A stretch of 38,838 bases of DNA from a virus: positions 1 to 38,838 of the IMG/VR virus record IMGVR_UViG_3300030494_000108; one strand, 5' to 3'. The position numbers and the translations under genes were made by a program. Below the pieces are notes generated by a model. It was not told the origin of the DNA, made no database searches, and saw only the letters and a list, made by a program, of their open reading frames with translations. Position 1 is the stretch's first letter; each line of letters starts with the position of its first letter. This document shows, in pieces, positions 9,716 to 30,723 of the stretch.

Positions 9716-10104
9716 CGATGACATTGAAAACAAAGACCGTGCGGGGATGGCGGGGATAGGTCCGATTGCTAGCGCACGGCGCGTGGATTGTTCTGCAGAG
9801 CGCGCGTTAGCACCCACACATGCGTTGGGAACTGGAATGGACGGAGGCTATACCCGCTTTCCCGCTGATCATTGTTGTTCAAGCCGTTAGGCTGCGGGAT
9901 AGGGCTGGCCACTCTTGCCGGATGCGTTCGGCGTGTGGAGTTTCACGCTCAGTACATCGTCACTCCACCGGGGATTTTGGACTGTGCACACTTTGGTCAC
10001 GTGCTGGGTATTGATATCCAGAGATGATCCGGTTCGACTCGGGAACCTGCGGACCAGGTGCGTTCAATGTCACGAGACTAGGACCAGGCGGGAGCGTGCG
10101 CGAA

Positions 10105-10123
10105 GGGGCCGGGGGGGGGCCGG
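10105..10123. repeat. Nine-G tract between GGCC blocks
   Basis: A run of nine G (10111-10119) is flanked by GGGGCC and CCGG. Long G runs are rare in coding DNA and may form G-quadruplex-like structure or be a site of slippage. No gene reads through it convincingly. Confidence 0.5.
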
Positions 10124-10254
10124 TCATTTCCTCGGGCCTTTCCGTTTTCCGTGACCATGGCGCAGCTACGCGTGATAATCCGCGAAATTAGAAACGCAAT
10201 TTAGAGGAATCACTCATCAAAAGGCGCTGCCGAATTTACTGAGAAGGATTGGAG

Positions 10255-12148: not shown

Positions 12149-13780
12149 GTGCCCTACTCCCAGGCTCAAGCCGATGCCGCGTGCAATTTCTTTGAGCACA
12201 TTCTCAAGCACACCGCGGACGAGTGGTACGGAAAGCCGTTCTTGCTGGTTCCGTGGCAAGAGGAAGCGCTCAGTGCCATCTTCGGCCAGATAGACGAAGC
12301 CGGAAACCGCATTATCGAGATGGCGTATTTAGAAGTTCCGAAGAAAGCCGGGAAGTCGGAGATGGCCGCAGGCCTGGCTTTGTTCGTTCTTCTGACCACC
12401 AATACACCCGGGTGCCAGGTCTACGGCGCTGCCGCAGCCACGCGCCAGGCGCTGAACGTGTTCCGTGCGGCATGCAAAATGGTCGACCAATCGCCAGTCC
12501 TTTCCAAGAGACTCCGCGTGCTTCGCGGCACGCATCGCATTATCAAGCGCTCGGACCCCGAATCGTTCTACGCCGCAGTCGCAGCCGATGGAGATTTCGG
12601 GGACGGAGTGAATCCCGCCGTCGTGATCGCGGACGAGATCCATCGTTGGAAAACACGAAAGCAGCTCGACAACTGGGACGTTCTCTCAAACGGCGGCATC
12701 ACGCGCCGGCAGACGCTCACGATCGCAATCACCACGGCCGGCGTACAGAACGAATCCCCACTGGCATGGCGGCTGCACGAAAAGGCCCGCAAGATCGAAG
12801 AGGGCATTGTTTCGGATGCGAAATTCTACGGCCGCATTTACGGTGCTGCCAAAGAAGATGACCCCGCCGACCCGAAGACCTGGATCAAGGCCAACCCTTC
12901 GCTCAAGCAAAACGGCGGCTTCCTCGATATCGAAAAGATCAGGGAGAAATTTGTCTCGCATGAAGCCGAAGGCGATCTCACATCCTTCAAGCGCTATTAC
13001 CTCAACATGTGGGATCAGAAAGAAAGTCGCGCGATCGACATGGTCAAATGGGACGCTTCCGCTGGTGACTGGCATGCTGCCGGCATGCTCGCAAAATCAA
13101 CCGAGGACAAGGTGCGACCCTTGCCTCACGCCTTGATGGCACGCTTCAAGGACCGGCGCTGCTGGGCCGGCGTAGACCTCTCGATGACGACAGACCTTTC
13201 CGCTGTAGCGCTCGTGTTCCCCTGTGATGACACCGGCTTCGACGTGCTGGCGTTCTTCTGGATGCCGGAACAGGCCGTGCGCCAGCGGGAACGGCGCGAC
13301 GGTATGCCGTACCAGCGATGGGCCGATCAGGGATTCGTCGAGCTTTCACCTGGTGACGTGATCGACTACCGTGACATCACGGCACGGCTGGTGTGGGCGT
13401 CAGAGATGTTCGACCTGCAAGAAATCTGCTTCGACCCGTGGAACTCACGACAGATCTCGATCTCGATGATTGAGCAAGGCTATGACTGCATCGAGATCCG
13501 GCAGGGTGTTGCCACACTATCCGAGCCGTCCAAGAAGTTGCTCGAACTGGTCGCATCTGGCAAGCTCCGCCACGGAGGAAATCCTGTGCTGCGCTGGAAC
13601 GCGAGCTGCCTCTCGACGAAGGAGAGCAACGATAACCTGATGTTCACAAAGCCGGAGCGGTCGAAAAGTTCCTCGCGCATCGATGGAATCGCGGCAACGG
13701 TCAACGCGCTGGCGCGCGCGATTGTGAGGAAGCCGCGGCAGATGAGCATTTACAGTACGCGGGGCATCTTGACGGTCTGA
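12149..13780 (+). CDS. Phage terminase large subunit
   Basis: The ATPase-nuclease of DNA packaging, 543 residues. Walker A is V-P-K-K-A-G-K-S-E (63-71), Walker B is A-V-V-I-A-D-E-I-H (157-165), and the nuclease domain starts with W-A-G-V-D-L-S-M-T-T-D (Asp342, Asp348) and continues with F-D-P-W-N-S at about 430. It belongs to the YmfN/Terminase_1-like group. The GTG start two bases after the upstream stop suggests translational coupling; no clear ribosome binding site is seen. All key residues are present, so packaging ATPase function could persist although no head genes follow. Confidence 0.92.
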   Translation: MPYSQAQADAACNFFEHILKHTADEWYGKPFLLVPWQEEALSAIFGQIDEAGNRIIEMAYLEVPKKAGKSEMAAGLALFVLLTTNTPGCQVYGAAAATRQALNVFRAACKMVDQSPVLSKRLRVLRGTHRIIKRSDPESFYAAVAADGDFGDGVNPAVVIADEIHRWKTRKQLDNWDVLSNGGITRRQTLTIAITTAGVQNESPLAWRLHEKARKIEEGIVSDAKFYGRIYGAAKEDDPADPKTWIKANPSLKQNGGFLDIEKIREKFVSHEAEGDLTSFKRYYLNMWDQKESRAIDMVKWDASAGDWHAAGMLAKSTEDKVRPLPHALMARFKDRRCWAGVDLSMTTDLSAVALVFPCDDTGFDVLAFFWMPEQAVRQRERRDGMPYQRWADQGFVELSPGDVIDYRDITARLVWASEMFDLQEICFDPWNSRQISISMIEQGYDCIEIRQGVATLSEPSKKLLELVASGKLRHGGNPVLRWNASCLSTKESNDNLMFTKPERSKSSSRIDGIAATVNALARAIVRKPRQMSIYSTRGILTV

Positions 13781-13814
13781 GGTTGGCCATAGCATGGGCC
13801 CCTGAAAAGCGAAA

Positions 13815-13843
13815 TGCCCGCCGCGGCCGAAGCCGGGCGGGCA
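13815..13843 (-). terminator. Terminator hairpin of the DUF3489 gene
   Basis: TGCCCGCC (13815-13822) pairs with GGCGGGCA (13836-13843), extended by CGGC/GCCG around a CGAA loop with one bulged G. On the minus strand the stem is followed by a T-rich stretch (TTTCGCTTTTC), as expected for a rho-independent terminator of the gene that ends at 13862. It may also slow transcription from the terminase side. Confidence 0.7.
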
Positions 13844-13861
13844 GAAGGGCCGGACGGGATG

Positions 13862-14275
13862 CTACTTTTTGATCGAGTAAACGCGCTCGCCGTCCTCGCG
13901 CTTGGCGGATTCGACGGTGAGCCCCATCTTCTTGCCCACGGTACCGGAGAGGAAGCCCCGGATCGAGTGATTCTGCCAGCCAGTCAATTTTGTGAGTTCG
14001 GCGAGGGTTGCACCTTTGGGCCGCCGGATCAGGGCCAGGATCTTCGCGCCCTTGCTTTCCGGGCGTGGGGCGGAGGCCTGCTTGGCCCTAGCGGGTTTGG
14101 CGGCTTTGGCTTGCCTCTTCAGTCCGGCCTTGGCTTTCGCACCCTTGGCGGCTTTCTGGCCCGTGGGCGCGCCCTTCTTTTGGCTCGCGCCCTTCTTCGA
14201 GTGGGTCTTCTCCGGCGCGACGTGCGCGCCCTGTGCCGCAACAGTGGCGGCTGTGTTGGCTTCAGCGTTGGTCAT
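13862..14275 (-). CDS. DUF3489 protein with histone-H1-like tail
   Basis: A protein of 137 residues. The first 70 are rich in Lys, Ala and Pro (K-K-G-A-S-Q-K-K-G-A-P and similar), like the tail of histone H1 or of nucleoid proteins. Residues about 72-137 match DUF3489, a winged-helix-like domain (I-L-A-L-I-R-R-P-K-G-A-T-L-A-E-L, then T-G-W-Q-N-H-S-I-R-G-F-L-S-G). DUF3489 genes are frequent in phage-like islands near recombinases; a DNA-binding role is inferred. It runs against all neighbours, has its own terminator, and sits exactly where portal and capsid genes would be expected. Confidence 0.82.
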   Translation of the reverse strand: MTNAEANTAATVAAQGAHVAPEKTHSKKGASQKKGAPTGQKAAKGAKAKAGLKRQAKAAKPARAKQASAPRPESKGAKILALIRRPKGATLAELTKLTGWQNHSIRGFLSGTVGKKMGLTVESAKREDGERVYSIKK

Positions 14276-14493
14276 GTTGGTTCTCGTATCCTTTTCTGCG
14301 CTTCGTTTGCGCCTGACGATTCATCGCTCTTGTCCGCCGGAAAGGCAAGGCAATAGTGAACGGGTTGCGCAACGTTAAGCGTGGGAGGCGAACACGTGGC
14401 GACATCAGCTGAATCGAAGCGATCGCCAGCCGCGAGCGTTGCGATGCTGATCCATCAAGCAGTGAGGCGCCGAGAAAACTATCCTGATGGACG

Positions 14494-15263
14494 ATGTCCT
14501 TCGTTCTCGGCAACGTCGACGTGAGCGGCAGCGGTCCGTACACGTACACCATCATTCCGGCTCTGGGAGCAACGAATCCGACCGGCCTCGAGTTGCCCTA
14601 CTCTCGTTCGTGCAGCAGATCCGGCCTGGTGGTTCAGCGGTGCTGGACGAAATGCTGGTGGGCTGCGCAGTCAAAGGTTGGAAGCTGTCGATTAAGAACT
14701 CGCCGGGCCGCGCCAGCGCGATGATCGCGGCGGAATGCGTGACTACCGGACAGTACACCTCGCCCAGCGGAATCACGCTGCCCGCCGTTTATTCACCGCA
14801 CGAGTTCAATGCCGAAATGATCAGCGCGCTGACCTTCAACGGCATCAACTACCTCTCCGGCAGCAGCGCCAAGGACTTCGTGTCCATGGAAGCGTCCTGG
14901 GAGAACAGCTTCCGGCCCGGATTTTTTCCTGGTTCGGGGGCGCAGGATGGCTACCAGATCCAGGGACGTTTCGAGTGGGGCGACCGCGTCTTTGCAGTGC
15001 AGTTCGTGGTGCGCGTCGAGGCAGGATCGGCCGAGTACTCGAACCTGATCAATCTGACCACCGGGACCGCCACGTTCACCGTGACTCGCGACACCAACAA
15101 TTCCTTCACGATGCTCATCCAGAAGATGGGTTTCAACGTCGCGGAACTCAGCAACACGGATGGCATCGTGACGCTCCAGATCACCGGCGTGCAACTCTTC
15201 GACCCCACTAACGGGCTGGTGACCATGACGATCATCACGCCGCAAACGGGTATCTGCCAATAG
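14494..15263 (+). pseudogene. Phage tail tube protein, frameshifted
   Basis: The likely N terminus (M-S-F-V-L-G-N-V-D-V-S-G-S-G-P-Y, from 14494) and the body (S-F-V-Q-Q-I-R-P-G-G-S-A-V-L-D-E to G-I-C-Q) lie in different frames; the break is near 14600, inside L-P-Y-S. The body is rich in short beta strands and ends in repeated strand-rich segments (V-T-L-Q-I-T-G-V-Q-L), as in tail tube or major tail proteins of siphophages. Position between terminase and a chaperone-like gene agrees. Assignment as tail tube is by composition and order, not by a diagnostic motif. A frame starting at 14487 could still make the body with a wrong N terminus. Confidence 0.55.
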
Positions 15264-16299: not shown

Positions 16300-16413
16300 C
16301 GGCGAATTATGAAGTGCCGAATAACTTCGACTTGGGCTCTCGGTCCGAGCGAGTTCACCCACCGCAGCACACACATCGCGTGCCTTGGCTTACCTGTCGT
16401 GGCGTACCTTCCG

Positions 16414-16442
16414 TTGCGTCATTCCTGCACATCTGGTAGTAT
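16414..16442 (+). promoter_or_regulatory. Candidate promoter of the TIR gene
   Basis: TTGCGT (16414-16419), a 17-base spacer and an extended -10 element TG-G-TAGTAT (16434-16442). Transcription would start at about 16449-16450, on the GTG that starts the TIR domain, which would give a leaderless message. The lack of a clear ribosome binding site before that GTG fits. Confidence 0.35.
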
Positions 16443-16449
16443 CCGGGCT

Positions 16450-16968
16450 GTGGACTGGGACGCGTTCATCTGTCATGCGCATGAAGACAAAGCGTTCGTT
16501 GGTTCGCTCGCCCAAGCTCTTCGTGCGGCGGGCCTCAGAATCTGGTACGACGATTTTGAACTCAAAGCGGGAGACAGCCTGCGGCGGTCGATTGATCGTG
16601 GTCTCGCTCGTTCCAGATTCGGGGTTGTGGTGTTAAGCAGAAGCTTCTTTTCCAAGAGCTGGACCCAATACGAGCTGGATGGGCTGGTCCAGAGAGACCT
16701 GGACCGAAAGGTCATCCTGCCTATTTGGCATCAAATAGAACGTGGGGATCTCATCAAGCTTGCTCCCTCCCTTGCTGATAAAGTTGCGATCCGCTCTACA
16801 TCTGGCATTCCTTCTATCGTCTCAGCCATAGTGGAAGCTATCGATAATGAGGGAAATTCACATCTACCGCAAGATGCGCCCCTCGAATCATCGGTAAAAC
16901 TGGAAAAGCCTCGCATGAATCTCCTGCGAGATCTTCCAATGACATCGCAGGAACGAGACGATGTGTAG
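16450..16968 (+). CDS. TIR-domain protein, probable defence effector
   Basis: A protein of 172 residues consisting mainly of a TIR domain. It opens with W-D-A-F-I-C-H-A-H-E-D-K, then L-R-I-W-Y-D-D-F-E-L-K-A-G-D-S-L (BB-loop region), V-V-V-L-S-R-S-F-F-S-K-S-W and Q-Y-E75-L, with Glu75 at the position of the catalytic residue of NAD-cleaving TIRs. Bacterial TIR proteins of this kind act in antiphage systems by degrading NAD or making signal molecules. An ATG at 16309 is in frame, but the 47 extra residues look unlike protein, so GTG 16450 is preferred. It stands between broken tail genes and precedes a 547-residue protein by 94 bases. Confidence 0.82.
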   Translation: MDWDAFICHAHEDKAFVGSLAQALRAAGLRIWYDDFELKAGDSLRRSIDRGLARSRFGVVVLSRSFFSKSWTQYELDGLVQRDLDRKVILPIWHQIERGDLIKLAPSLADKVAIRSTSGIPSIVSAIVEAIDNEGNSHLPQDAPLESSVKLEKPRMNLLRDLPMTSQERDDV

Positions 16969-17062
16969 AGAACATCGCGATCTGGGAGACTTGCCCACAA
17001 AGCTGTCTTTGCCCCAGCTTCCTCCGGTCGGCTTAAGTGTCGCGTGACGAACGCAATTTGCT

Positions 17063-18706
17063 ATGTCCGATGAACTGTCAATCTTCGACCCCCCGATAGA
17101 TTCACCGATCGACAACCTCGGGAAGTCAGCATTCGCGCCGTCGGTCGCCACTTCTCTTTCGAACGCCCAGGGAACGGTCTTGTTGCAGACGTTGAACATC
17201 ACGGCAACTCCTAACGAGAAGCGCCCCATCCCGATTCCAGAGAGAACGATTATCTCGTTGGGAGACCCACGCAAGGGCCCGCCTTCGAGATTGGTCGGTA
17301 CCGAGGCTGAATTTGAGCTGAAGATATCGCTTTTAGTTCATAATTTGTCGGAAGGCGCAATTCGGCTCTGCGATATCAAGGCGCACATCTATCATGTGTC
17401 GATGTATTCACAGCGCTTAGCGATCGTTCCATGGGCACCGAGGGTTCAGTTGGCCGCTGACAACACAGCTGACTTAGCTGCGGTGGGGTCGGATCTAAGC
17501 GGGGGGAGAGCCCAACCAATCGATTTGGTCCTTGAGACATCTGTTTTCGATACACTCTTCACAACCGTAGTATTTGGACTTACCGTGTTTTACGAGATCG
17601 CGCCCAGGGACGTCCGAACCGTGCATCATGTCCCATCAGACAAGATTTACATTTTCCAGCATGATCACCATTGGGGTGCCAGTAAGTGTCATTTCGTTAG
17701 CAGGAGCGCGGCTGAAATTGAGGAGCGACGCCAGGAAGCACCTGGCGATCACGGTTTTTTCGACAGCCTGCTGAGGATCGTCGAGTTGCACACTAGTCCA
17801 AGGGAACAAAAGTCCCTGTCTGCAAGGGCGGGGGAGCAAGTATCGACCGCTCCTCCCACAGCCCAGGGCACCGGTGATGCTGGTGCGGACCAACCGCTCC
17901 AGAAACCCGAGGAGGAGAATCCAGTATCTGTTCTTTTCGACTCGCGGACTCAGGTCGGTAGCACGGTCTCAGAGTTGGGCACTGACTTTGTGGTCGTCGG
18001 TTTGACGCTGCCAACTCCTGAACCGCTGTCGGGTTCGCCAAACCTATATCGGCACGTTTACGAAGACCTCGCGGCTGCGCACAACAGATTGAAACATTCC
18101 CGGACGTTCTTTGCGATTACCTCTGTGGTTCGTAGCCCAATGAGGAACGCATACTGGATTGTCGCGATTTTTGATAACGAGATTCTGAACAGCGAAGCCC
18201 TCCACGACATTGAGGGTGCCGTCACGATGTTGTCAACGGCCGTTCAAACAAGTCCTTCATTTGAGACTTGGTGCGGCAACACTGGTTACTTCGTGGTCAG
18301 TTATAGTGACGAACACAAACGCGTTCTCGCCGTGAATTTTGGAACGACTCTCACCTTCACGAGTTTCGCCGTGGCCGAGAACAAGCGATATTTCACTGGC
18401 GAGTACGAGCCAGAATATCTGGCCGCTTCAGGTCTCTTCATTGGCACTTGCCACTTCTTCCTCGGTCGCTATGGACAGGCAATATCGGAATGGCAGTTCT
18501 CTACCTCGCACTCCGCACACCCGAATCCGTTCTTCAACATTGCGTGCGCATATTCGAAACTCGGCGACATAAGTCAGGCATATGAATACTGCATGCGGGC
18601 TGTGGAGCATGGCGTTTCGCGTGACCTTGTGCTGCACGATCCCGACTTGAGCGCACTCAGACAGCATTCGTCGTATACGAAAATCAAAGATGCTCTGGGA
18701 GCATGA
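17063..18706 (+). CDS. Unknown two-domain protein with C-terminal TPR repeats
   Basis: A protein of 547 residues, not recognised as a whole. Residues about 1-215 are strand-rich (E-F-E-L-K-I-S-L-L-V-H-N-L-S, then F-G-L-T-V-F-Y-E-I). About 230-290 is a Pro/Glu/Gly linker. Residues 295-450 form a second mixed domain (T-D-F-V-V-V-G-L-T-L-P, then T-F-F-A-I-T-S-V-V-R-S), and about 450-547 read as TPR repeats (F-L-G-R-Y-G-Q-A-I-S-E-W; F-N-I-A-C-A-Y-S-K-L-G-D) with the usual H-D-P-D-L closing motif. It follows the TIR gene in the same direction and could be its sensor or partner. The gene is intact and AT-richer than the tail genes. No signal peptide. Confidence 0.6.
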   Translation: MSDELSIFDPPIDSPIDNLGKSAFAPSVATSLSNAQGTVLLQTLNITATPNEKRPIPIPERTIISLGDPRKGPPSRLVGTEAEFELKISLLVHNLSEGAIRLCDIKAHIYHVSMYSQRLAIVPWAPRVQLAADNTADLAAVGSDLSGGRAQPIDLVLETSVFDTLFTTVVFGLTVFYEIAPRDVRTVHHVPSDKIYIFQHDHHWGASKCHFVSRSAAEIEERRQEAPGDHGFFDSLLRIVELHTSPREQKSLSARAGEQVSTAPPTAQGTGDAGADQPLQKPEEENPVSVLFDSRTQVGSTVSELGTDFVVVGLTLPTPEPLSGSPNLYRHVYEDLAAAHNRLKHSRTFFAITSVVRSPMRNAYWIVAIFDNEILNSEALHDIEGAVTMLSTAVQTSPSFETWCGNTGYFVVSYSDEHKRVLAVNFGTTLTFTSFAVAENKRYFTGEYEPEYLAASGLFIGTCHFFLGRYGQAISEWQFSTSHSAHPNPFFNIACAYSKLGDISQAYEYCMRAVEHGVSRDLVLHDPDLSALRQHSSYTKIKDALGA

Positions 18707-18860: not shown

Positions 18861-19319
18861 GTGCTGAAGTTTCAAACGTTCATCAAAAGCGCTCGGTTCG
18901 TTTATTCCCCATACACCGCGACTGAGATGCAGGGCTTCGCGCCAGTCCTGGCGGATTCGATCCGGGCACGTATCCAGCGCGGCCAGAACATCTAAGACCA
19001 AGCGGCGGCGCCTCTGAAGGTCGGACTGCCGTGCCGTCGCGGCTACCCGGATTACAAGGTGGCGCGAGGTCTCAATCCCATTCGCGACTGGACGTGGCGC
19101 GGCCATACCCTGCGCTGCCTCAAGGTCCTGACCGCAAATGAGAACCGCGCGGCGATTGGGTTTCTCGATAAAGCTCTTCCTGGCCGGCGAATGACGGCCT
19201 CGCAGATCGCGGCGTTCAACAACCGGCGCGAGGCGCAGTGGGGTTTGTCGCCGCGCGACCGACAGGCGGTGCTCGCCGCATTCCAGTCGCGTCCCTTCGA
19301 GATGCTCAAGGCAGCTTGA
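18861..19319 (+). pseudogene. Phage virion/tail protein with an internal stop codon
   Basis: From the GTG at 18861 one frame reads L-K-F-Q-T-F-I-K-S-A-R-F-V-Y-S, then E-M-Q-G-F-A-P-V-L-A-D-S-I-R-A-R-I-Q-R-G-Q-N-I, hits TAA at 18993-18995, and continues in the same frame with D-Q-A-A-A-P-L-K and D-W-T-W-R-G-H-T-L-R to the stop at 19319. The pattern (A-D-S-I-R-A-R-I, A-P-L-K, D-W-T-W-R-G) fits small virion morphogenesis or tail-completion-type proteins. A single base change in a codon such as GAA would explain the stop. A product could restart at GTG 19059. It lies just before the tape measure remnant. Confidence 0.6.
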
Positions 19320-19320
19320 A

Positions 19321-20965
19321 ATGGCAGACCAAGCAGAGCGCGTAATCCTCGAAGCCGAGGAAACGCCGGTACTCGAATCGGTCGGCAGGGCCAACACCGC
19401 GCTCGACAGCTTCGACTAGCGATCGCTCCCACGCGCGACGAGGAGGATCGCTCCAAGCGCGCGAGCGATATCCAAGGCCAGATCCAGCGGTTGCAGAAGA
19501 TGCTGGAGGATGCCGAGGCAGTCACCAAGCGGACGGACCTGCGCGAGGGCAAGGATGAAAGGGATCGGCTTCGCGCCAGGTTCTTCGGTACGCACGATGG
19601 TATGGAGAGGCATACGCCGACGCCAAGAAGGACGTTGAGCGGCTCCAGAAGCAACTGTTGGAACCGGACAAGCCGTTGACGAGAGCGCAAGCGCAGGATC
19701 TGGGTCAACAACTCCGGACTGCCGAAGCTACCGAAGCCCGCCGCAAGGCGGCACTGGATGCGGTCGCAAAAGGCGCGGAGCAGCTCAAGGATTTCCGTCG
19801 CCAGGCAACCGAGTTCGAGAAGAAGGGCGATGAAGCCGAACTGGATGCGATCGGCAAGATCTACTATCAGCGCGATCAGCTTCTGAAACAGGCCGAGAAG
19901 GTGAAGGCGTCGGAATCGGAGATCGCCGCGATCCGCAAGTCGGCGGACGAGCAGGCTGCCGTTCTATCGAAGAATGCGTGGGAGGAGTTTGAAAAGTACG
20001 CCGAGAAGGAAGAGGCCGATCGGCGCAAGAAGATGCTCGCGCCGCTTGCTACGATTCTGGGCTCCGGCTCCAAGGGCGGCACATCCGGTCTCTACGGGAT
20101 GTTCAGTAAGGGCGGCTTCTCGAAGTCGCTCTCCAACCTGAAAGGCACGTTCTGGAACCAGGACGCCTGGAACGCCTCTGATAGCAACTTCTGGGGTGGC
20201 GTCCAGGGCGTAGCGAAGTCTCCCGCCGCCGGAGCCGCCGGCATGATGCTCGCGACCAGTGGGCTGTTCGGATCACAGCGCGGCACGTGGACAGGCGCTC
20301 TTGAAGATACCGCCGGTGGCGCATTGATCGGCGAGCAGATCGGCGGTCCATGGGGGGCCGCGATTGGAGCGGCGGCGGGCTTCACTGCCGGAACGGTCGA
20401 GAAGTTGCTCGGCATTGAATCACCGCAGAGGAAGGCGCACGACGACATCAAGAGCATCTACGGCGTGGACATCCCGCAGAACAGTGGCACCATCAAACAG
20501 GTGGTGCAGATCGCGCAGTCCCAGTTCGGCGGCGATATCGCGGTGGCCGTGCGATCCCCGAGCGTGCGTCAACTTGTGATGCTGTACTCGGAAGCCACAG
20601 GACAGAAGATGCCACTGTCGGCCACCACGCCTTACGCCGGGAGTCTTGTGGAGCAGGGCGGTAAGCTTTACCAACAAGCCAGCTACCAGGATGGCCAGGC
20701 GCACGTGTACGCTTCGAACATCTCGACGCTCGGCGGGATCGCGGCCGGGACCTATCCCACACCGGGGAACCCGAACACGGGAGGTGGCACGGGCGCGACG
20801 TACATGTCGCTGAACATCAGCGGCTCCGATGCGGCGAACTTCATGACCGGACAATTCGTCACGCCGCAGTTCGTGACGGACCAGGCGATGGCGGCGCAGT
20901 ATTCGAGCTACGGGCGGACGCAGCAGTCGGCCAACATGCAGCTACCTGGATTGACGGTAGCGTGA
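19321..20965 (+). pseudogene. Tail tape measure-type protein, broken and shortened
   Basis: The ATG at 19321 starts M-A-D-Q-A-E-R-V-I-L-E-A-E-E-T-P-V-L-E-S and stops at a TAG near 19417. A second frame carries Q-R-L-Q-K-M-L-E-D-A-E-A-V, and a third, from about 19610, carries the rest (A-K-K-D-V-E-R-L-Q-K-Q-L-L to L-P-G-L-T-V-A). The long coiled coil, then a Gly/Ala-rich hydrophobic stretch (G-A-A-G-M-M-L-A-T; A-A-I-G-A-A-A-G-F-T-A-G) fits a tape measure, but the total is short for one, so internal deletion is likely. The third part could be translated from TTG or GTG codons near 19658 as about 435 residues. Its last 76 codons are duplicated at 22741. Confidence 0.55.
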
Positions 20966-21388
20966 TTCAAGATGCCGGGCAATCTCGTTCAAAGCGAACC
21001 CAACGGTGTGATGCCAGCCTCGCTGTGCACCGCTTTCACGGAGCTGCGCGAGTATGCTCAACTCCAGAACCAGTACCACGACGGCACGATCCAGCGGTCG
21101 CAGCTTGCTCAAACCTCGCGCCGCACGTTCCGCTTCAGCAAGCGCCTCAACGCATCGACACTCTTAGCGCTGTACAACTTCTGGGTCTCCCAAAACGGCG
21201 GATTGACGCCGTTCGCGTTCTATAACCCGTTCGATGTCGCGGCCGGCCAGCAGATCGGCAGCAACTACGATCCCACTGGCAACAACACTCAGGGGCGCGT
21301 GACGGTGGTGTTTCGTGGCAACTGGGCGCAGGCCATGGACATCGCGCGGACGAACGTGCAGGGGCTGGAAATCGTGGAGGTGGCTTAA
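20731..21388 (+). repeat. 658-bp duplicated segment, copy 1
   Basis: It covers the last 76 codons of the tape measure remnant and the whole following 138-residue tail gene. Copy 2 lies at 22736-23393 with the same length and gene spacing. The encoded proteins differ at about 5 of 76 and 18 of 138 positions by eye, so the duplication is not recent. Confidence 0.85.
20972..21388 (+). CDS. Tail protein, copy 1 of a duplicated pair
   Basis: A protein of 138 residues starting six bases after the tape measure stop. Visible blocks are E-L-R-E-Y-A-Q-L-Q-N-Q-Y-H-D-G-T, S-R-R-T-F-R, F-W-V-S-Q-N-G-G-L-T-P-F-A-F-Y-N-P-F and R-V-T-V-V-F-R-G-N-W. The second half recalls the small distal-tail proteins of the DUF2460/gpM type, in which an F-x-F-Y-N-P strand and a final beta strand set are usual. 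It is probably a minor tail or tail-tip protein. A close paralogue, about 87% identical, lies at 22977. It is intact. Confidence 0.6.
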   Translation: MPGNLVQSEPNGVMPASLCTAFTELREYAQLQNQYHDGTIQRSQLAQTSRRTFRFSKRLNASTLLALYNFWVSQNGGLTPFAFYNPFDVAAGQQIGSNYDPTGNNTQGRVTVVFRGNWAQAMDIARTNVQGLEIVEVA

Positions 21389-21398
21389 CTGTGGGGCT

Positions 21399-22496
21399 CT
21401 ATTCGCCCTTCGCTGGCGAACCGCTAGCCATGCGCTGGATGACGCCCCAAGCCCAATCCAGAGCACTCTTGGGACCTCGCTGCCGCGCGATCACGGCACC
21501 AACTATAAGCGCAGACCATACCTGCGGTTTCAGGAGTACGTTCTCCCAAAACCAACTCAGCAGCCACCACCAAGGCCGGCCTTTCACCTTAAACGGAAGC
21601 CCGGGCTCAACGTCCCGGCTTCCGGCGGACGAGAAGACTTTCAGCGCAACTTTTGCGTTAGCCTCTCCCTCAGGATCTCTCAGCCATGACCAGAATCGCT
21701 GTTTCAAGCACCAGTGCCACCCTACGTCCCCCCCACCAAGATCGAGCGGTTTTGTCGTTGGGATGGCCTCGGAAGTGCAGTCAGACGCGTGCATGTCTAC
21801 GCCATCGGCAGTGATCGCAAGACGCGGCTGAACTGAGAGCTTTTCGCTCGCGGCGTCGGCCTCGACCGCCTTTCCCAGAGCCGGAAATATGTATGGGTGG
21901 AAAATGAGATCGAATGGTTTCTCACCGTGGGTCAGATCGACTTCGAGAGGGTAGCTGAAAACACCGAAGACTGTCACAACAATCTGGTGCCCGCCGACTG
22001 CAAATGCAACCTTCCCCTTCCCGGCCTGATTGCTCAGGATGTCCGCTGCGCTGTTGGCATCGAGGCCAAGATGATGATCGCGGAGCACAGAGACCGCCGT
22101 ATCGAGGGCGCGGCCTGTCAGCGAGTTGACCTCAGCCTCGGCCGTAAGCTTCGCATCACCGAGTCTCTTCATATCATTCTGGAGCCTATCGATATTGTTC
22201 TGGAACTGGTCGCCCTCACTGAGCAGCTTAGAGATCTCAGCGAGGGCACCGTCGACGTCTTCTGCATACACTTTGGCTACTCTGGCCTCTCGCATCCAGC
22301 TCTGACACGCCTGGCTCCTCCAGCAGGAGCTGTCTTTGAAGCCCTGCACGAACTCGACCGCGCGTTTGGCCCGCTCCAGGTCAAGCGACATCTGAGCTTG
22401 CCCGACGACTGAACTGGCTGTTGCTAGGACCATGACAGTGACGACAGACAGACGATAGGGGACGGTGACGCAGTAAGCGATTCGCGAGCTAATCAT
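21399..22496 (-). CDS. Secreted or membrane-anchored unknown protein (cargo)
   Basis: A protein of 365 residues on the strand opposite to the tail genes. Residues 1-34 look like a signal peptide (Y-R-L-S-V-V-T-V-M-V-L-A-T-A-S-S-V-V-G-Q-A). About 75-130 is predicted coiled coil (L-L-S-E-G-D-Q-F-Q-N-N-I-D-R-L-Q). A mixed middle domain follows, and a Trp-rich hydrophobic segment near 308-340 (W-W-W-L-L-S-W-F-W, then A-L-I-V-G-A-V-I-A) should span or dock to the inner membrane. No family is recognised. AGGAGG lies just before the ATG. It ends ten bases from the first 138-residue tail gene and fills the gap between duplicated phage segments, so it is an insertion. A role in defence or envelope exclusion is only a guess. 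Confidence 0.6.
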   Translation of the reverse strand: MISSRIAYCVTVPYRLSVVTVMVLATASSVVGQAQMSLDLERAKRAVEFVQGFKDSSCWRSQACQSWMREARVAKVYAEDVDGALAEISKLLSEGDQFQNNIDRLQNDMKRLGDAKLTAEAEVNSLTGRALDTAVSVLRDHHLGLDANSAADILSNQAGKGKVAFAVGGHQIVVTVFGVFSYPLEVDLTHGEKPFDLIFHPYIFPALGKAVEADAASEKLSVQPRLAITADGVDMHASDCTSEAIPTTKPLDLGGGDVGWHWCLKQRFWSWLRDPEGEANAKVALKVFSSAGSRDVEPGLPFKVKGRPWWWLLSWFWENVLLKPQVWSALIVGAVIARQRGPKSALDWAWGVIQRMASGSPAKGE

Positions 22497-22616
22497 AGGT
22501 CCTCCTCTGTTGTCCCGCCCTGTGAGTCACCTGACGGGAACATCTCGCACTAAGCATATCTCTCTATCGGCGAGCGGAGTTGAGGGTCGCGGTCGTCAGG
22601 TCCGGTCCAAAAAGTC

Positions 22617-22739
22617 ATGTCCGACATCATCGGCCGCATCGCCGCCACGGTGACCAACTCGGGCCAGACATTCCCGCTCACCACGCAGTACCCGTTCGGC
22701 TTCTCCGTCGAGCGCCCGGTGATCGTCCACCGCTTCGGC
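22617..22739 (+). repeat. Partial copy of the tail hub gene start
   Basis: This stretch repeats the first 41 codons or so of the tail hub gene at 25304-25429 (one codon shorter here; both have S-G-Q-T-F-P-L and T-Q-Y-P-F-G-F-S-V-E-R-P-V-I-V-H-R-F-G). The match ends at TTCGGC, where the tape measure copy begins. Confidence 0.85.
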
Positions 22740-22970
22740 GGCATCGCCGCCGGGATTTATCCGACGCCGGGCAACCCCAACACGACTGGCGGCTCTGGGG
22801 CCACATACCTCTCGCTGAACATCAGCGGCGCCGACGCGGCGAACTTCATGACCGGACAGTTCGTCACACCCCAGTTCGTGACCGACCAGGCGATGGCGGC
22901 GCAATATTCGAGCTACGGGCGCACGCAGCAGTCGGCCAACATGCAGCTACCCGGACTGACAGTGGCGTGA
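22617..22970 (+). CDS. Chimeric gene: hub N terminus fused to tape measure C terminus
   Basis: An open frame of 117 residues joins two unrelated tail proteins. Residues 1-41 are the start of the tail hub protein (M-S-D-I-I-G-R-I, ending V-H-R-F-G), and residues 42-117 are the C terminus of the tape measure protein (G-G-I-A-A-G-I-Y-P-T-P to L-P-G-L-T-V-A). The junction lies at TTCGGCGGCATC near 22736-22745, where both parents share a short CGGC block. The frame stayed open across the fusion. Whether it is expressed is unknown; no clear ribosome binding site is seen. Confidence 0.6.
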   Translation: MSDIIGRIAATVTNSGQTFPLTTQYPFGFSVERPVIVHRFGGIAAGIYPTPGNPNTTGGSGATYLSLNISGADAANFMTGQFVTPQFVTDQAMAAQYSSYGRTQQSANMQLPGLTVA

Positions 22971-23393
22971 TCCAGAATGCCTGGCAATCTCGTACAATCC
23001 GCACCCAACGGCGTGATGCCGGTCTCTCTCTGTACCGCGCTCACGGAGCTGCGCGAGTACGCTCAACTCCAGAACCAGTATCACGACGGGACGATCCAGC
23101 GGTCGCAGCTCGCGCAGACTTCGCGTCGCACGTTCCGGCTCAGCAAACGATTGAGCGCTTCCGTGCTCTCCGCGCTGTACAGCTTCTGGGTTTCCCAGAA
23201 TGGCGGCTTGACGCCTTTCGCCTTCTACAATCCGTTCGAAGTGACGTCCGGTCAGCAGATCGGCAGCAATTACGATCCCAGCGGGAACAACACGCAAGGG
23301 CGCGTGACGGTGGTGTTCCGTGGGAATTGGGCCCAAGCCACGGACATCGCGAGATCCAACCTGCCAGCGCTGGAATTGGTCGAAGTTGCGTGA
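22736..23393 (+). repeat. 658-bp duplicated segment, copy 2
   Basis: Second copy of 20731-21388, colinear and of equal length, holding the tape measure C-terminal codons and the second 138-residue tail gene. Its left edge is the chimera junction. Confidence 0.85.
22977..23393 (+). CDS. Tail protein, copy 2 of a duplicated pair
   Basis: A protein of 138 residues, colinear with copy 1 and about 87% identical by eye. Most changes are conservative (F-to-L, D-to-E, T-to-S) and the shared blocks (E-Y-A-Q-L-Q-N-Q-Y-H-D-G-T and P-F-A-F-Y-N-P-F) are unchanged, which suggests that both copies were under protein-level selection for some time after they separated. It is followed by the transglutaminase cargo gene. 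Confidence 0.6.
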   Translation: MPGNLVQSAPNGVMPVSLCTALTELREYAQLQNQYHDGTIQRSQLAQTSRRTFRLSKRLSASVLSALYSFWVSQNGGLTPFAFYNPFEVTSGQQIGSNYDPSGNNTQGRVTVVFRGNWAQATDIARSNLPALELVEVA

Positions 23394-23490: not shown

Positions 23491-25200
23491 ATGCCGCGTG
23501 CGGTTCGAATCTTTTGGGCCTGTACCGCCGGGATCCTGTGCCCGCTCATTCTCTCATTTGCGGCAGATGTCGAACCTCGTAGGGCCACAGACGTAACTCT
23601 CAGACTGATCCTTTCCGACATCCCAAAAAGCACGAAACAGGTGGAGGTATGGATACCACTTGCACATAATGACAGCTACCAAGCCATCTCGAACTCTACG
23701 GTCAAGAGCGATTATCCTTACCATTCGGTGTATTCGTCGAGTCAACGCGAACCAAGTCTCTTGCATTTGAAATTCCATCCCAACAGCGACAGGGTTGCGC
23801 TGAGTCTGGCTTTTCAGGCAACTAGAGCCGCACGTGCGACGAGCGGCTCTAACGCACCCTACGATTATGTAAGGCTCTTTTTGAGTCCCCAAAGCCCGAA
23901 TGACTCGATAAGAAATGCTACCCCGGCGATTACAAAGGGCATTGATACCGAACTTCGGAAGGCACGCGCAATTTTCGAGTACACGCTTAAGAATTCACGA
24001 GACTCTAAGGCTGACAATCGAGACGGATTTGACTGTGATCAGGTGGTGCGATTCGTGATGCTAAGCCGCGCCGCGGAGATCCCAGCGTACCTTGGGAGCG
24101 GTTTTAGGCTTCCTTCGACTCGAAGAGAAGGTTCAGTGCTGAATCACTACTGTTGGGCGAGCGTCTTTGTTAGGGATACGGGTTGGGTGCCTGTTGACCT
24201 GATCAGTGCGCTGCATGCCGACGATCCGAAATCTCGTGAGCAGTTTTTTGGTCGCCTCGATGAAAACGTTGTCGAGCTTTGGTCCGAGCAAAACGTGGTG
24301 CTAACTCCACCACAACAAGGGCCTCCGATTGGGCTCCTTATTGGGCCATATGTGGAATATGACGGAAAGCCTATATCTGGTCTCAATTTCTTCGCGGACT
24401 ACAAGAACCGCGAATTGCCGAAACAGCAGGCCCCATCTCAACCGCCGCCGCAACCACAAACAGCTGCTCCGATGCGCCGGATTGATTGGGTAATGATTGG
24501 GGTGGTTGCGCTCGGCGTGATTGCGTTGGCATCAATGGCACTGATCTCCGTGATACTCGACAAGTTGCAGGGCGTCGACCTCTCCCCAGTTGTTGAGGAA
24601 ATTAAAACGATTTGGGTAATGCGCTACGCCTGGGAGGCAAGAATCGCCCAGGAAAACGACCCGGCTAAGCGACGAAGAATGCTCTTTGACAGGCGGTTTA
24701 GCGAGGCGAAACGTGCATTGCGACTGGCATCATGGGACTATCGCTGGAGTTCGTTGCTCGCTTCATCATTGCGTTTCAGTAGGTATGTCGTTGGTGGCGT
24801 ATTGGCCGCTTCGTTGGGACAGAAGGATCTTCAACGGCCTTCTGTCGTTGGGGCATTGGGTTTGCTTGTCATTGGTGCATCAATTACCGACGACAGGTTC
24901 AAGCCGGAAGCTCGGGCAAATCGAGCCTCGCAGCGCAAAATTGCCCTACTGACCCTGGTGCGAGATATTGAAGAGGGCATGGTCGAGGCTTCCACCGATC
25001 GTGAATGTGAGGATTTCAAGGTCCTAGCGGAACAGATATCGCGGCGACTTAGGGAGATTACTGGTGACAGTAAGAGTCCTGCTGAAACTACATCAGAGCC
25101 TCCAACTGAAACGGCGATCGAAAGTCCAGCAGGTGCCTCAAAGACCGCTCCAACTCCAAATCCTGCAAGTCATTCGGTTACTTCATCATCGTCATCATAG
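23491..25200 (+). CDS. Membrane-anchored transglutaminase-like protein (cargo)
   Basis: A protein of 569 residues. Residues 1-25 look like a signal peptide (C-T-A-G-I-L-C-P-L-I-L-S-F-A-A). A strand-rich domain follows, then a transglutaminase-like core with a full candidate triad: Cys182 (G-F-D-C-D-Q-V), His219 (L-N-H-Y-C-W-A-S) and Asp236 (W-V-P-V-D-L). After a Pro/Gln linker comes a membrane segment at about 334-356, then a charged cytoplasmic region of about 190 residues with a further hydrophobic stretch and a Ser/Thr/Pro-rich end. The core would lie outside the inner membrane and could act as a protease or crosslinking enzyme. The gene is intact, AT-richer than the tail genes around it, and has its own promoter candidate. 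Function in this context is unknown. Confidence 0.7.
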   Translation: MPRAVRIFWACTAGILCPLILSFAADVEPRRATDVTLRLILSDIPKSTKQVEVWIPLAHNDSYQAISNSTVKSDYPYHSVYSSSQREPSLLHLKFHPNSDRVALSLAFQATRAARATSGSNAPYDYVRLFLSPQSPNDSIRNATPAITKGIDTELRKARAIFEYTLKNSRDSKADNRDGFDCDQVVRFVMLSRAAEIPAYLGSGFRLPSTRREGSVLNHYCWASVFVRDTGWVPVDLISALHADDPKSREQFFGRLDENVVELWSEQNVVLTPPQQGPPIGLLIGPYVEYDGKPISGLNFFADYKNRELPKQQAPSQPPPQPQTAAPMRRIDWVMIGVVALGVIALASMALISVILDKLQGVDLSPVVEEIKTIWVMRYAWEARIAQENDPAKRRRMLFDRRFSEAKRALRLASWDYRWSSLLASSLRFSRYVVGGVLAASLGQKDLQRPSVVGALGLLVIGASITDDRFKPEARANRASQRKIALLTLVRDIEEGMVEASTDRECEDFKVLAEQISRRLREITGDSKSPAETTSEPPTETAIESPAGASKTAPTPNPASHSVTSSSSS

Positions 25201-25303: not shown

Positions 25304-28300
25304 ATGTCCGATACCATCGGCCGCATCACCGTCCCCACGGTGATCAACTCCGGCCAGACATTCCCGCTCGCCACGCAGTACCCGTTCGGCTTCTCCGTCG
25401 AGCGCCCGGTGATCGTGCATCGTTTCGGCAGCCTCGACGCCAAGCAGGAGCAGCGGTATTACATCGGCATCGGCCCGCGCAAGTTTCAGTTCAAGCGGCC
25501 GAATCTCAACTGGGCGGAAGGCCGCCAGCTCAAGGCCTTCTGGGAGTCGATGCAGGGGCCATGGAAGGCGTTCACCTACAACGTCCCCAACCCGGATGGA
25601 ACGACCACCGGCGTGCTCGTGACCTTTGAGCAGCCGCCGATCTCATTCGAGTACCTCCGCAACGCTGCACAGGTGGGATTGAACCTCGTCGAAGTAGTCG
25701 ATCCGACGCAAGCGCCCACCTACGCGATCACTTCCACCTGCCTGCGGTTCCCCTCGAGCGCGCTGTCCACCGCCCTGCTCTCTGAAGTCCAGCAGATCAT
25801 TCCGCTCGTCCACATCCGCGTGCGCGAATCCGCGGTCGCGGACATCTATCTATCAGACCGGCGCGTCACCGTCGGCGGGCAACTCTACCTCCCGCGCTTG
25901 ATCGGCATCGGCGAGCCCGGCTCTGACGTCCTGATTTCCCAGGACATCAAAGGCACGTCGGACAACGTTCGCTTCACCTTCGGCAACGGCGACCGCGTGA
26001 TGACGCAGGTTGCCAACGACACGGACCTGAAGTACGCCGAGATCGACCTCTGCCTTTTCCATGTGAACTCGGGGATTCTGTTGCAGCTCTGGAAGGGCGT
26101 CATTCAGAACTTCACGAGCGACGGGACGCCGATTTTCCCCGTGACGTGTTCCGACGGCTTCTTCCAGATCATGAACCAGTACCCGGAGCGGCAACTCAGC
26201 CGCCAGTGCTGGAAGACCTACAACGATGGCGTGAATTGCCTGGGCGTCAAGAGGCAGAAGCGCCGCAGCAGTAACCGCCGCAGGTGGCGATCCCACGAGT
26301 TGCGATTACTACCTCGAATCGAAGAACGGATGCCAGGTGCACGGCATGGCTCCATACTTCGGCGGGCATCAGGCCGATCCGCAAGGCGTCGTCATCAAGG
26401 ACAACTCCACCGGCTTCCTCGGCTTCGGCCGCAACACTGTAACCGCCACTTCCATCCTTTCCGATACGATCTGGGGCCTGGCTCTGCCGGAAATCTGGTG
26501 CAATAGCGACGGCAATCCGCTGTTTGCTTTCGTCGCCAACGCTCTGATGGTGGCGTACCGCGATGAATCCGACTATGCCGACTCCCTCGGCATTCTCGGT
26601 GCCGGCCCCATCGGCGGATTCACCGGGATGTACGTGGTTACCAACGCCGACGGCTACCGCTACGTGGTGGCGCCCATGGTTGATGGCTACACACCACAAG
26701 GCTTCAAGGTCGATGGCAACCTGAACGTGCAGATATCGAGGGGCAGACGGTCACGGATTCCATGTACGACCTGGACGTCGGGCCGAAACCGATGGACGTG
26801 GTGCCCGCGCCTCTGCCGCCGCTGTTCTATCCGATGCCGCTCGGTCCTGCGTGGGCGCCGTACCAGGTGCAAGCTGCGGCCAATGACGCGCTCTTTCCGG
26901 GCGAGTGGACGTTCGATACCAATCAGTCCTATGCGCAGTTGGCCGACGGCAGCATGCTTGCAAACCTCCTGGTTACCGGGAAGCTGCCAGTCAACGAGTT
27001 CAGCGCCACGGGGGAGGTGCGCCGGGGATCAGATCGATCTCGCAGTCCACGACGGGTGGGTCGTTACCGGCCAACGTAACATTGCGCGTGGCCATCTGCG
27101 CAACCGACTCGAACGGGCTTCCTTCGGCTCCGTCTAATATCACCATCATAGGGACCTCGGCATCTGGAACGGACACGTTCACCTTGGAAGACATCACCTG
27201 GCCGGCAGTCGCGGGCCTCGTTTCCTACGTGTCGTTCGTGGCCACGCAGGACGACTTGATTTGCGCGCAGGCGACTGGAACGCTGACCGCCGGTCCGAGC
27301 AACACGTACACGCCCGGATCGATCGCGTTCGGCGGGCCAGTGTTGCGCTCGACATGGGCGTTGCCGTCTCCGTATGTCAGCAAGGTCCGGATCAAGGCCA
27401 AACACGAGATCCATGGCGGCGTAATCGGCGGCTCGATCGATAGCGTATCCGCCGGCACGCTCGTCACCGGCTATCTTCAGGACGCGCCGGCCTCCACGAA
27501 TCCATCCTGGACGCCCGTGGGCCGCATCATCTCCATCATCGGCAGGCCGGAGGGCGACACGCCGTATTTCAGTGCGAAGGTCACCTCGTGGGACCAGACC
27601 ACCGGCACCCTCGGCGTGACTCCAGACCCGAACGGCATCGTCCAGGAAGGCGACTGCTCGTTCTGCGGTTTACTGCCGATGCCTCAAACACCACGAATCC
27701 GACCTCCGTTACCGATTCCGGCTGCCAGAACAACGTCTATCCCAACGGCATGACGCCCGGCGCAGAGGTCGGCAACCTGATCCGGGTGATTCAGGGAGTC
27801 TCACGCGGGACGACGCCGGTGAAGATCGTCGCGAATACAGCGACCACTCTCACGTGGGACCTCCCCATGGTCATCAATCCCGGCGACGTGTGGATCATCA
27901 AGGAACCGACTTGGCCCTACTCCTGCGACACGACGTCGCTGGACAACGGCAACCCGCTGGCGGTGACGACGATCAACATGCCCACGAACAATTTCGTGGA
28001 CGAGACGCTCGTGATCGTGGGGTTCACCGTGGACGTGAACGGCAACGAATCGCCCGACGGCGATGCGCCGATCCGCGAGGACTGGGTTTTCGGCGCTGAG
28101 GGACTTTCGAAGGTCGCCGGCCTGGTTTTCCAGATGCAGGGCACGCTGGGGATCGAGTCTAACGCGGCTCAGCCTTTGTATTTGAACCGTCCCGTGACAG
28201 TCGGCGATGTGAAGGCTTACGTGCAGTCGGCTCCCACCGGCTCGGGGATCAGGTTCACGATCTACGTCGGAGGCGCAGCCTGGCTCACGCTCACGATTCC

Positions 28301-28445
28301 GGCTGGCCAAACAGCCGTGGTCGCCACGCCTTCACAGGTTGCCGCCCTGTCACAAATCCCTGCGAACACAGCGGTCTCCATCGGCATTACCGCGGTAGGC
28401 AGCACGTTTCCGGGCGCGGATCTTTCGGTGTTCATTTATGCGTAA
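25304..28445 (+). pseudogene. Large tail hub/host-contact protein, frameshifted four times
   Basis: From the ATG at 25304 the protein reads on through T-Q-Y-P-F-G-F-S-V-E-R-P and a DUF2163-like part (R-F-T-F-G-N-G-D-R-V-M; S-R-Q-C-W-K-T-Y-N-D-G-V-N-C). It shifts near 26240 into S-C-D-Y-Y-L-E-S-K-N-G-C, near 26740 into M-Y-D-L-D-V-G-P-K-P, near 27020 into a fibronectin-like stretch (T-L-R-V-A-I-C-A-T-D-S-N-G) and near 27670 into A-S-N-T-T-N-P-T-S-V-T, ending at 28445 in F-I-Y-A. The whole would be about 1,040 residues: a baseplate-hub-like N terminus and a strand-rich C-terminal part that would contact the host. Each fragment is coherent, so this was one gene or two fused genes. An in-frame ATG at 25268 is less likely as start, since the duplicated copy begins at M-S-D. 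Confidence 0.65.
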
Positions 28446-28514: not shown

Positions 28515-29723
28515 GTGTCACACCCACCGGAGAAGCTGTGGCCCTTGACATTAGCGGACCATCACGCCAAAGACCGTGGGCTGTGGTGCGCAAATTGCCT
28601 GGACTACATCCACAGGCCCGTCGGCCGTCAAAACCAGCGCCAGGCGCTTCAGAACCATCATCAGCTTCCTATGGATTACCTGGATGAACTGGAACAGCAC
28701 GGAGTCTCTTTTCCCCGCCGATGGACGATACCGGTTCACGCCTGGCCGTGCCATCAGCACCACCCGAAGGGCTTGGACTTACAGAGCATCTCCGACGCGA
28801 GCGCTACCTTCTTGAGTCAGTTGGACCGCGGCCCGTTTAACCTTGAACGACATGACCACTTGGCAAAGCAGTTTCACGATCGTGGCTTATACGGCCACTC
28901 TGCGATCGTCAAGGAACGAATCAAGAAGCATCTTAGGAGCGATGCTCGGATGGATGAGTACTGGCAGACCCTGGAACGCCAGATTGCCTCCGGGGCAGGA
29001 TTTCGATACGTGTTGCCCTTCACCGCTGAGTCTCCCGAAGAGCCAGGGTACCCCGAGCTTCTATTGGTGCGTTCCAATGACGCAGCCAACAGGCACCAAT
29101 GGAAGCGCTCCCGCCAATACTACGATCGTGCGGTGGCCCAGCGTCCGAAGCCTAGGTCCGAACGCGCAGAACGACTTGAGCCGTACTATGCACTCAGGAG
29201 GGCACAGCAGTCTGATCGCAAGCGTGCGGATGTAGTTCGTGCACTAGAAACTTGTGACGGCCTCGGGTACAGTTTTGACACAGCGAAGGTGATCGGCTCT
29301 GGGATTCTGCTTGATGAAGGCGGCGCGGAAGACCTTAAAGACGCCAGGAATTATGCCAACGAACTCCTCGACACTGGACGGGACACAGCTTGGCTTTATC
29401 GGGCAGAGAGCCATTTCCTTCTGGCGTGCGTAGGAGTCGAGAAAAACGAGAGTCCGCAGACTATCTACGGTGATCTCGCGGTTTCTCAGTATATCTACGT
29501 TATGTTGGGGCTCCAGGGAACACCACATCCCAAGGTTCCTGCGTGCCGGCCCCCTGAACGGAACGCTTGGCCGGGAGACGTCCTTATAACCAACAGCAAG
29601 CTACATGGCCTGACTTCCTTGTCATGCCTCAACGTGCGGCAGCGAAAGATTGTGGAAAGTGGGCTGCAGCGGGAGTTGCTGAATGACCTTGCTGGATGGA
29701 GGCGAGACTTTCACCTTGAATGA
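28515..29723 (+). CDS. Unknown cargo protein with an N-terminal Cys/His cluster
   Basis: A protein of 402 residues. The N-terminal 90 residues hold C25-A-N-C28 and many His (N-H-H-Q, H-A-W-P-C-H-Q-H-H), suggesting a metal-binding domain. The rest is helical and charged, with R-Q-Y-Y-D-R-A-V-A-Q-R and A-R-N-Y-A-N-E-L-L-D-T-G-R-D that could be repeat helices. No family is recognised. The GTG start has GGGGA about seven bases upstream. It is intact between two broken tail genes and converges with the next gene, its stop only seven bases from that gene's stop. Confidence 0.55.
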   Translation: MSHPPEKLWPLTLADHHAKDRGLWCANCLDYIHRPVGRQNQRQALQNHHQLPMDYLDELEQHGVSFPRRWTIPVHAWPCHQHHPKGLDLQSISDASATFLSQLDRGPFNLERHDHLAKQFHDRGLYGHSAIVKERIKKHLRSDARMDEYWQTLERQIASGAGFRYVLPFTAESPEEPGYPELLLVRSNDAANRHQWKRSRQYYDRAVAQRPKPRSERAERLEPYYALRRAQQSDRKRADVVRALETCDGLGYSFDTAKVIGSGILLDEGGAEDLKDARNYANELLDTGRDTAWLYRAESHFLLACVGVEKNESPQTIYGDLAVSQYIYVMLGLQGTPHPKVPACRPPERNAWPGDVLITNSKLHGLTSLSCLNVRQRKIVESGLQRELLNDLAGWRRDFHLE

Positions 29724-29730
29724 ACTCTCA

Positions 29731-30723
29731 TTAAGCTGAATCCTGTCGAAATCGTTCGCTCGCTCTTGCGACGTAGGCTATTTCTCTACCCGGCGCGGCC
29801 GCCTCGCTCTCAAGAAGGGCGAGCTTGCGGCGGCGCACGGCAAAGAGGGATTTTGCGGCGTTACTCCAGTTGATCTTGACAAGGTTCTCGGCAAACTCCA
29901 GGGTCGTGGTACACACCGACTCGATAATTCCGCGATCGTATTGAAGTCTGTGGCGCTGCAGGTGTCTCTCATACAAGCCCAACAGCCACTGAAGTTTTTC
30001 CTCAATTTCGCGTGTTGGGAGATCCAGGCGTGCCACATCACGCATCCACAAGCGCAGCCCAATGAGCGATTGTCTGCAATCGGAGTCCGACTTGAAATCG
30101 AGGATTGCCTCGATCGACGCTGTTTCCCCTGGTAAAGGCATTGCCCTAAGCACCACCTCCGCCACGTCAGAATGTTTCGCGTCCGCGAGCTTTCGATCTC
30201 CAAGAACGCTGGCGGCAACGGGCTGCACATCATCCCAAACGTCCGGCATCGGTGCCGCCGAAACTGCGTCGGCAATTCCAGTTGACCGTAAATAGTCAGC
30301 CGTGAAGCGAGCGACGAGGGCCAACCTGAGCGACTGAATCTTTTGACTCAGCCAAAGTTTTTCACCTCCTCCGGGCTCCGGATACCTGAATAGGGCCCCG
30401 TCTCCCGCATCTAGCCAGGGTCCACCAGCCGCGTCAAAAAGTTCCTCTTGAAACCTACACAAAGCGCCCAGCAAGAAATAGTCTCGGCGATGTTCCTCGC
30501 ATTCGTAGAATGACGGGGGCGGTGGTTCGACGCGCTCAAGTAGATCCTGCGCTTCGAGCCACTCTAATTGGTCGGCGACGTTGGGGTCACCGTGCACGAA
30601 GTTGCGGTGAAGATGCAGAAGATCCTCAAGGCCAATGACTGCAAGACGATCGAATAAGAGTAGTTCCCTCTTCGGTAGTTCCAGCATGGAGCCTTGGTGC
30701 AGTACGCCAGTCCAACCCTTCAT
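29731..30723 (-). CDS. Unknown helical cargo protein
   Basis: A protein of 330 residues, acidic and largely helical, without signal peptide or membrane segment. The middle part (V-L-R-A-M-P-L-P-G-E-T-A-S-I-E-A-I-L-D-F, then L-R-L-W-M-R-D-V) and the following long helices recall uncharacterised cargo proteins that share an L-P-x-P and a L-R-x-W block, but I cannot name a family. It is convergent with the 402-residue gene and could form a divergently regulated pair with it in cargo. A good promoter candidate lies upstream. Intact. Confidence 0.55.
   Translation of the reverse strand: MKGWTGVLHQGSMLELPKRELLLFDRLAVIGLEDLLHLHRNFVHGDPNVADQLEWLEAQDLLERVEPPPPSFYECEEHRRDYFLLGALCRFQEELFDAAGGPWLDAGDGALFRYPEPGGGEKLWLSQKIQSLRLALVARFTADYLRSTGIADAVSAAPMPDVWDDVQPVAASVLGDRKLADAKHSDVAEVVLRAMPLPGETASIEAILDFKSDSDCRQSLIGLRLWMRDVARLDLPTREIEEKLQWLLGLYERHLQRHRLQYDRGIIESVCTTTLEFAENLVKINWSNAAKSLFAVRRRKLALLESEAAAPGREIAYVARASERFRQDSA

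Follow-up and report, generated by a model that had tools for sequence, protein, structure and literature searches.

The window analysed here is the whole of an IMG/VR record of 38,838 bp and holds a prophage of a soil acidobacterium that is broken and has no capsid genes; part of its tail module occurs twice. Along it lie a tape measure gene at 19303-20965 (+), delimited by tblastn with the intact tape measure of the related locus L013; the 138-residue tail gene X1 at 20972-21388 (+); cassette 1, a 365-residue frame with a hydrophobic N terminus at 21399-22496 (-); a chimeric open frame of 117 residues at 22617-22970 (+), in which the N terminus of the tail hub is joined in frame to the C terminus of the tape measure; X2, a second open frame of 138 residues at 22977-23393 (+); cassette 2, a frame of 569 residues at 23491-25200 (+); and the hub gene at 25304-28442 (+).

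Tape measure and hub are both decayed. The former, a protein of about 1310-1360 residues in relatives, is left as pieces in different frames with two internal deletions, only its last ~309 residues (20036-20962) being intact and 98% identical to those of L013. The hub, 1472 residues in relatives, survives as frame-shifted pieces with about 410 residues deleted; the preliminary description of this DNA had it recurring at 25304 as a full gene, and the recurrence holds, but the gene is broken compared with its relatives. Of the genes that encode portal, protease, scaffold and major head proteins in the relative G003, none has a match in the window, where only ~0.7 kb separates the terminase gene (12149-13780) from the first tail gene (14487). 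With tape measure and hub broken and portal and capsid genes absent, the prophage is defective. A satellite phage, as another reading of a capsid-less element, was set aside because tape measure and hub are broken. The serine integrase frame at 464-2122 is still open. Within 12149-15260, the terminase large subunit is of the phrog_9 type, unlike the phrog_15 type of G003, and the first tail gene is missing ~92 residues at its N terminus.

Gene X has a weak match to DUF2460, and its structure was predicted with a mean pLDDT of 79.5. It resembles phage lambda gpM and Dit-type tail-tip proteins in coming after the tape measure and in its nearest predicted folds, which are the lambda tail-tip chain 8iyk_E, a GTA virion chain and a T1 tail-tip chain (Foldseek probability 1.00), but it differs from them in that a sequence search of the PDB returned no match and the structural matches have weak E-values (0.008-0.022) and TM-scores of 0.44-0.59.

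The two cassettes are unrelated to each other. Cassette 1 could not be assigned to a family with confidence from Pfam, PHROGs, PADLOC or NCBIfam, and its structure model is uninformative (mean pLDDT 38). Cassette 2 contains a transglutaminase-core domain (E 6e-8), with hydrophobic stretches near the N terminus and at residue 328, and like cassette 1 it has no match in PADLOC. Their GC3 values, 0.52 for cassette 2 and 0.66 for cassette 1, compare with 0.55-0.66 in other accessory genes and 0.77-0.89 in tail genes. No RNA families were found in the window.

The duplicated block of 658 bp, with copies of equal length, that the preliminary description reported is borne out: 20731-21388 aligns with 22736-23393 without gaps (offset 2005) at 83.3% DNA identity, which drops to chance level on both sides of the block, and 4000 random placements of the same stretch reached a maximum of 32.8%. 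Each copy comprises the last 76 tape codons and a gene X, copy 1 with X1 being placed at 20740-21388 (+) and copy 2 with X2, attributed below to a putative parent B, at 22740-23393 (+). A repeat finder returned direct repeats at 20730-21029 and 22735-23034 (85%) and at 22625-22751 and 25315-25441 (87%), and no further long direct repeats in the whole window. The tail gene is likewise present twice, as had been described, at about 87% protein identity, and the differences between X1 and X2 (53, 12 and 11 at codon positions 3, 2 and 1) are mostly synonymous (dS 0.87, dN 0.079). The tape end copies give a dS of 0.63 and a dN of 0.04, and the hub start copies a dS of 0.19 and a dN of 0.03.

The joint and the origin of the two copies

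A base-by-base comparison, with some 60 related loci as reference, places the joint within five nucleotides. Hub-specific bases end at 22734 and tape-specific bases begin at 22740; the TCGGC between them, at 22735-22739 (+), fits both genes, and the crossover lies inside it. Upstream of the tape-specific bases is a relic of the first 41 codons of a hub gene (22617-22739, +), one codon shorter than the corresponding part of the hub at 25304, which is followed in the chimera by the last 76 codons of the tape measure. Both the in-frame fusion of copy 2 to the first 41 hub codons and a junction at a short CGGC block had been recognized in the preliminary description, and both stand. Its suggestion that the chimera might be a stable product is unsupported: a degenerate DNA search of 2.9 million viral contigs for the junction returned nothing but the second record, which matches the window at 100% identity. 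Most likely, the chimera arose as a by-product and has no selected function.

X1, X2, the chimera and both cassettes are open, although tape measure and hub are broken, which could reflect either selection or a recent joint. Under selection, the chimera and X2 would have been retained for their use, as a landing site or as a product, in a prophage that holds two cassettes, and X1 and X2 do deviate from the family consensus at 11 sites each, as other members of the family do. The hub part of the chimera, however, is off the consensus at 5 of 42 aligned sites, the lost codon included, which is near the upper end of the family range; the chimera is also confined to this population, and with the capsid genes absent, tail proteins are of no evident use. 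We regard such a selected arrangement as extremely improbable.

The copies were then set against the rest of their families. X1 and X2, at 81.9% identity, fall at the 32nd percentile of 1540 family pairs, the two tape ends (86.4%) at the 63rd and the two hub starts (92.7%) at the 73rd, so that each pair resembles sequences from two different phages. By DNA identity, the other X copy ranks only 35th-38th among relatives; a supported branch (95/91) unites copy 1 with three other rows and leaves copy 2 outside, and X1 and X2 were joined in 0 of 200 bootstrap trees. The two units also carry unrelated cassettes, one of 365 residues on the minus strand and one of 569 residues, transglutaminase-like, on the plus strand.

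These observations bear on a tandem segmental duplication, which the preliminary description offered beside recombination between two related phages. In that reading, tape end, X, cassette and hub start were duplicated in place in one phage, diverged for a long time and had one cassette replaced; the head-to-tail order and the spacing fit it, and in an AU test X1 and X2 are still acceptable as sisters (p 0.25). Against it, the cassettes are unrelated, which requires the extra replacement, the dS of 0.87 between X1 and X2 is as large as between different phages, and no bootstrap tree joins the copies, which by DNA identity do not rank as each other's nearest relatives. A duplication in place is therefore disfavoured and retains a small probability, and the recombination of two related phages, with its joint in a 5-nt block, is supported.

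Could the joint have arisen in the computer? The record comes from a metagenome, many related phages share the conserved flanks, and the frameshifts in tape measure and hub might be read as poor sequence, all of which would suit an assembly that fused two strains. However, the flanks have only 5 nt in common at the joint and the longest exact run common to the copies is 29 nt, too short for usual assembly k-mers, and the frame remains open across the joint. Moreover, a second record, G001, is the same as the window over 27,589 bp with zero mismatches, so that breaks and joint are not the accident of one assembler, although the two samples may be the same or linked. An artefact is thus very unlikely. 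G001 also extends 454 bp past the right end of the window (G001:C1:1-454).

We consider it very likely that the window bears the scar of one illegitimate recombination, at a 5-nt microhomology, between two related temperate phages, and that the prophage has decayed since. The parents are read as related Bryobacteraceae-type phages. Parent A would have had the order tape measure-X1-cassette 1-hub, contributing the tape measure at 19303-20965 and the hub relic at 22617-22739, and parent B the order tape measure-X2-cassette 2-hub, contributing the hub at 25304-28442. With A's hub fused at codon 41 to the C-terminal part of B's tape measure, the order would have become tape(A)-X1-cassette 1-[hub(A) start/tape(B) end]-X2-cassette 2-hub(B), and decay would have followed. 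Two phage genomes may have crossed over within one cell, or neighbouring prophages in the same orientation may have lost the DNA between them; either event would leave an identical sequence.

The presumed parental layout is found in relatives that carry one cassette. A search of viral contigs for a parent carrying just one of the window's two cassettes found none; among 297 genomes from the host phylum, nothing matched cassette 1, and for cassette 2 the matches were limited to distant relatives of the transglutaminase kind, at ~26-48% identity over partial length. X occurs in 49 of 237 genomes of one host family, 15 of these 49 having two or more matches and some as many as six, and one 85.6-kb contig (IMGVR_UViG_3300048503_000180) carries two related tail modules, L041 and L037, in the same orientation ~63 kb apart. 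Hosts with several prophages and a contig of this kind indicate that a setting for such recombination is available.

The X-hub interval in related phages

Related loci were collected through gene X: viral contigs supplied 65 and genome contigs seven, the latter including Solibacteraceae and further acidobacterial bins. X and hub had no relative among 50,697 phage records. The gene order in relatives is tape measure-X-[variable]-hub. In 58 loci, the gap between X and hub ranges from -1 to 4690 bp, exceeds 300 bp in 49, and has sharp edges at the stop codon of X and the start codon of the hub. Neighbouring intervals are fixed, g202-g175 at 32-35 nt and g159-tape at mostly 4 nt. The slot is empty in L005, L008, L053, L063 and L066, as well as in four loci of bacterial genomes (L140, L141, L149 and L151), and even bacterial genomes with an X of only 40-46% identity keep this order, whether or not the slot is occupied. 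The 84 cargo ORFs, the window's two included, fall into 68 clusters. Cassettes 1 and 2 occupy the place between X and hub where relatives normally carry one exchangeable cassette. By profile comparison, X (20972-21388) and the ~130 N-terminal residues of the hub (25304-25700) are distant homologues (E 1.5e-6), so the slot is flanked by two genes with related tail-tip domains.

Two loci of the collection call for separate mention. In a bacterial-genome prophage, L145, X (9853-10260, -) has two stop codons, which marks another decaying member. At L069 (PMJO01000007.1), X is 87% identical; its 3-kb contig belongs to a bin with the label Myxococcales but may be acidobacterial DNA that was binned wrongly.

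Cassettes also move between phages: two phage pairs have a common cassette at 94.9% and 96.5% identity with X and tape end at 84-89%. In these, the clearest exchanged pairs, the step up in identity comes at the stop codon of X; a third pair shows a drop where the hub begins. From such boundaries one could imagine a dedicated machinery of exchange, with cuts precisely at these two codons and an ability to stack cassettes, the window being a failed exchange. A search for a boundary motif for site-specific insertion found none: information content falls to about zero right after the X stop, conservation returns with the hub start, and this start is preceded only by a weak C/A-rich context. We give a mechanism of this kind a slim chance, and prefer the single illegitimate event described above as the origin of the window's arrangement.

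Remnants of X, hub or tape measure were sought in other slots, with one clear find: in L004, at 9134-9214, the last 27 codons of X lie just before the hub, after the cassette, as a second case of flank duplication.

The interval between X and hub is one of several. Further slots are g175-g159 (> 300 bp in 51/54 loci), tape-X (12/66) and hub-fibre (8/21). In the window, a second variable slot of the tail module spans 16309-18706 (+) and holds a TIR-domain gene (16309-16968), with a ThsB-like PADLOC match (E 7.6e-33), and a TPR gene (17063-18706); the genes that flank this slot enclose 23-2781 bp of changing sequence in relatives. A third variable interval, at 28515-30723 between hub and tail fibre, contains ORFs of 402 (+) and 330 (-) residues with low GC3, neither of which has a family match.

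Cargo and known hotspots

To what extent is the cargo of the slot defence-like? In PADLOC, 66 cargo ORFs gave matches to 130 families, whereas an equal number of chromosomal ORFs drawn at random from related hosts gave 49; the strongest control matches were mostly to PD-T4-6 and other models, all of which presumably represent one kinase protein. At 1e-8, 8 of 20 large cargo ORFs matched PADLOC models, among them LmuB over its full length, NsnA and PD-Lambda-2_B, and also generic repeat or dGTPase models. Further clear cases, chosen for their defence-like look, are a TIR-TM protein in L051 and a TIR protein in L016, and many cargo ORFs have no match. Cassettes are probably accessory genes expressed by the lysogen, defence-like in many relatives, and to judge from the slot they occupy the window's own two may have a role in defence. 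Judged from its sequence, the slot reads as a phage defence or moron hotspot within the tail module.

Lambdoid phages carry morons, additional genes of differing base composition, often on the opposite strand, that separate neighbours which adjoin each other in relatives. The X-hub insertions are like them in lying between genes adjacent in relatives and in their differing GC3, but the slot is much more polymorphic. A scan for promoters and terminators gave two promoter-like and six terminator-like sites, no more than in shuffled sequences, with the caveat that the consensus may not suit the host.

P2/P4 phage hotspots are single fixed places with a very rapid turnover of unrelated cassettes, many of them like anti-phage systems, and they adjoin cos, whose ends are speculated to initiate exchange (PMC9122126). 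The X-hub slot shares with them fixed anchors, turnover of unrelated cargo and a temperate phage context, and its cargo may likewise be rich in defence-like genes. It differs in lying in the tail module of acidobacterial prophages, with other slots nearby and ~14 kb from the terminase in G003.

Among acidobacteria, superinfection-immunity genes outside intact prophages have been described (PMC5900883), and group (i) of the Bryobacteraceae-linked proviruses, including those of Ca. Solibacter usitatus and Paludibaculum, is reported to have a common gene order (PMC11924767). The Tunturi group (i) proviruses belong to the same host family; the section of that paper devoted to them mentions neither cassette slots nor a duplication. 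Our searches of the open-licence literature found no published report of these tail-module slots.

Taken alone, the duplication is a commonplace scar of recombination, and the prophage that bears it is dead; it is the surrounding cassette slots that deserve further attention. What the scar records is how two cassettes can become neighbours in a cargo slot, through a non-allelic joint of two related phages, and it thereby bears on how genes swap at phage defence hotspots, the question raised in PMC9122126. Slots between the tail genes of acidobacterial prophages, for their part, are anchor-defined places in which to seek new anti-phage genes in soil. At the far end of the window, a protein of 1481 residues (34393-38838, -) with a weak NACHT/AAA (STAND-like) match adjoins the end of the tail fibre, and is possibly another accessory defence gene.
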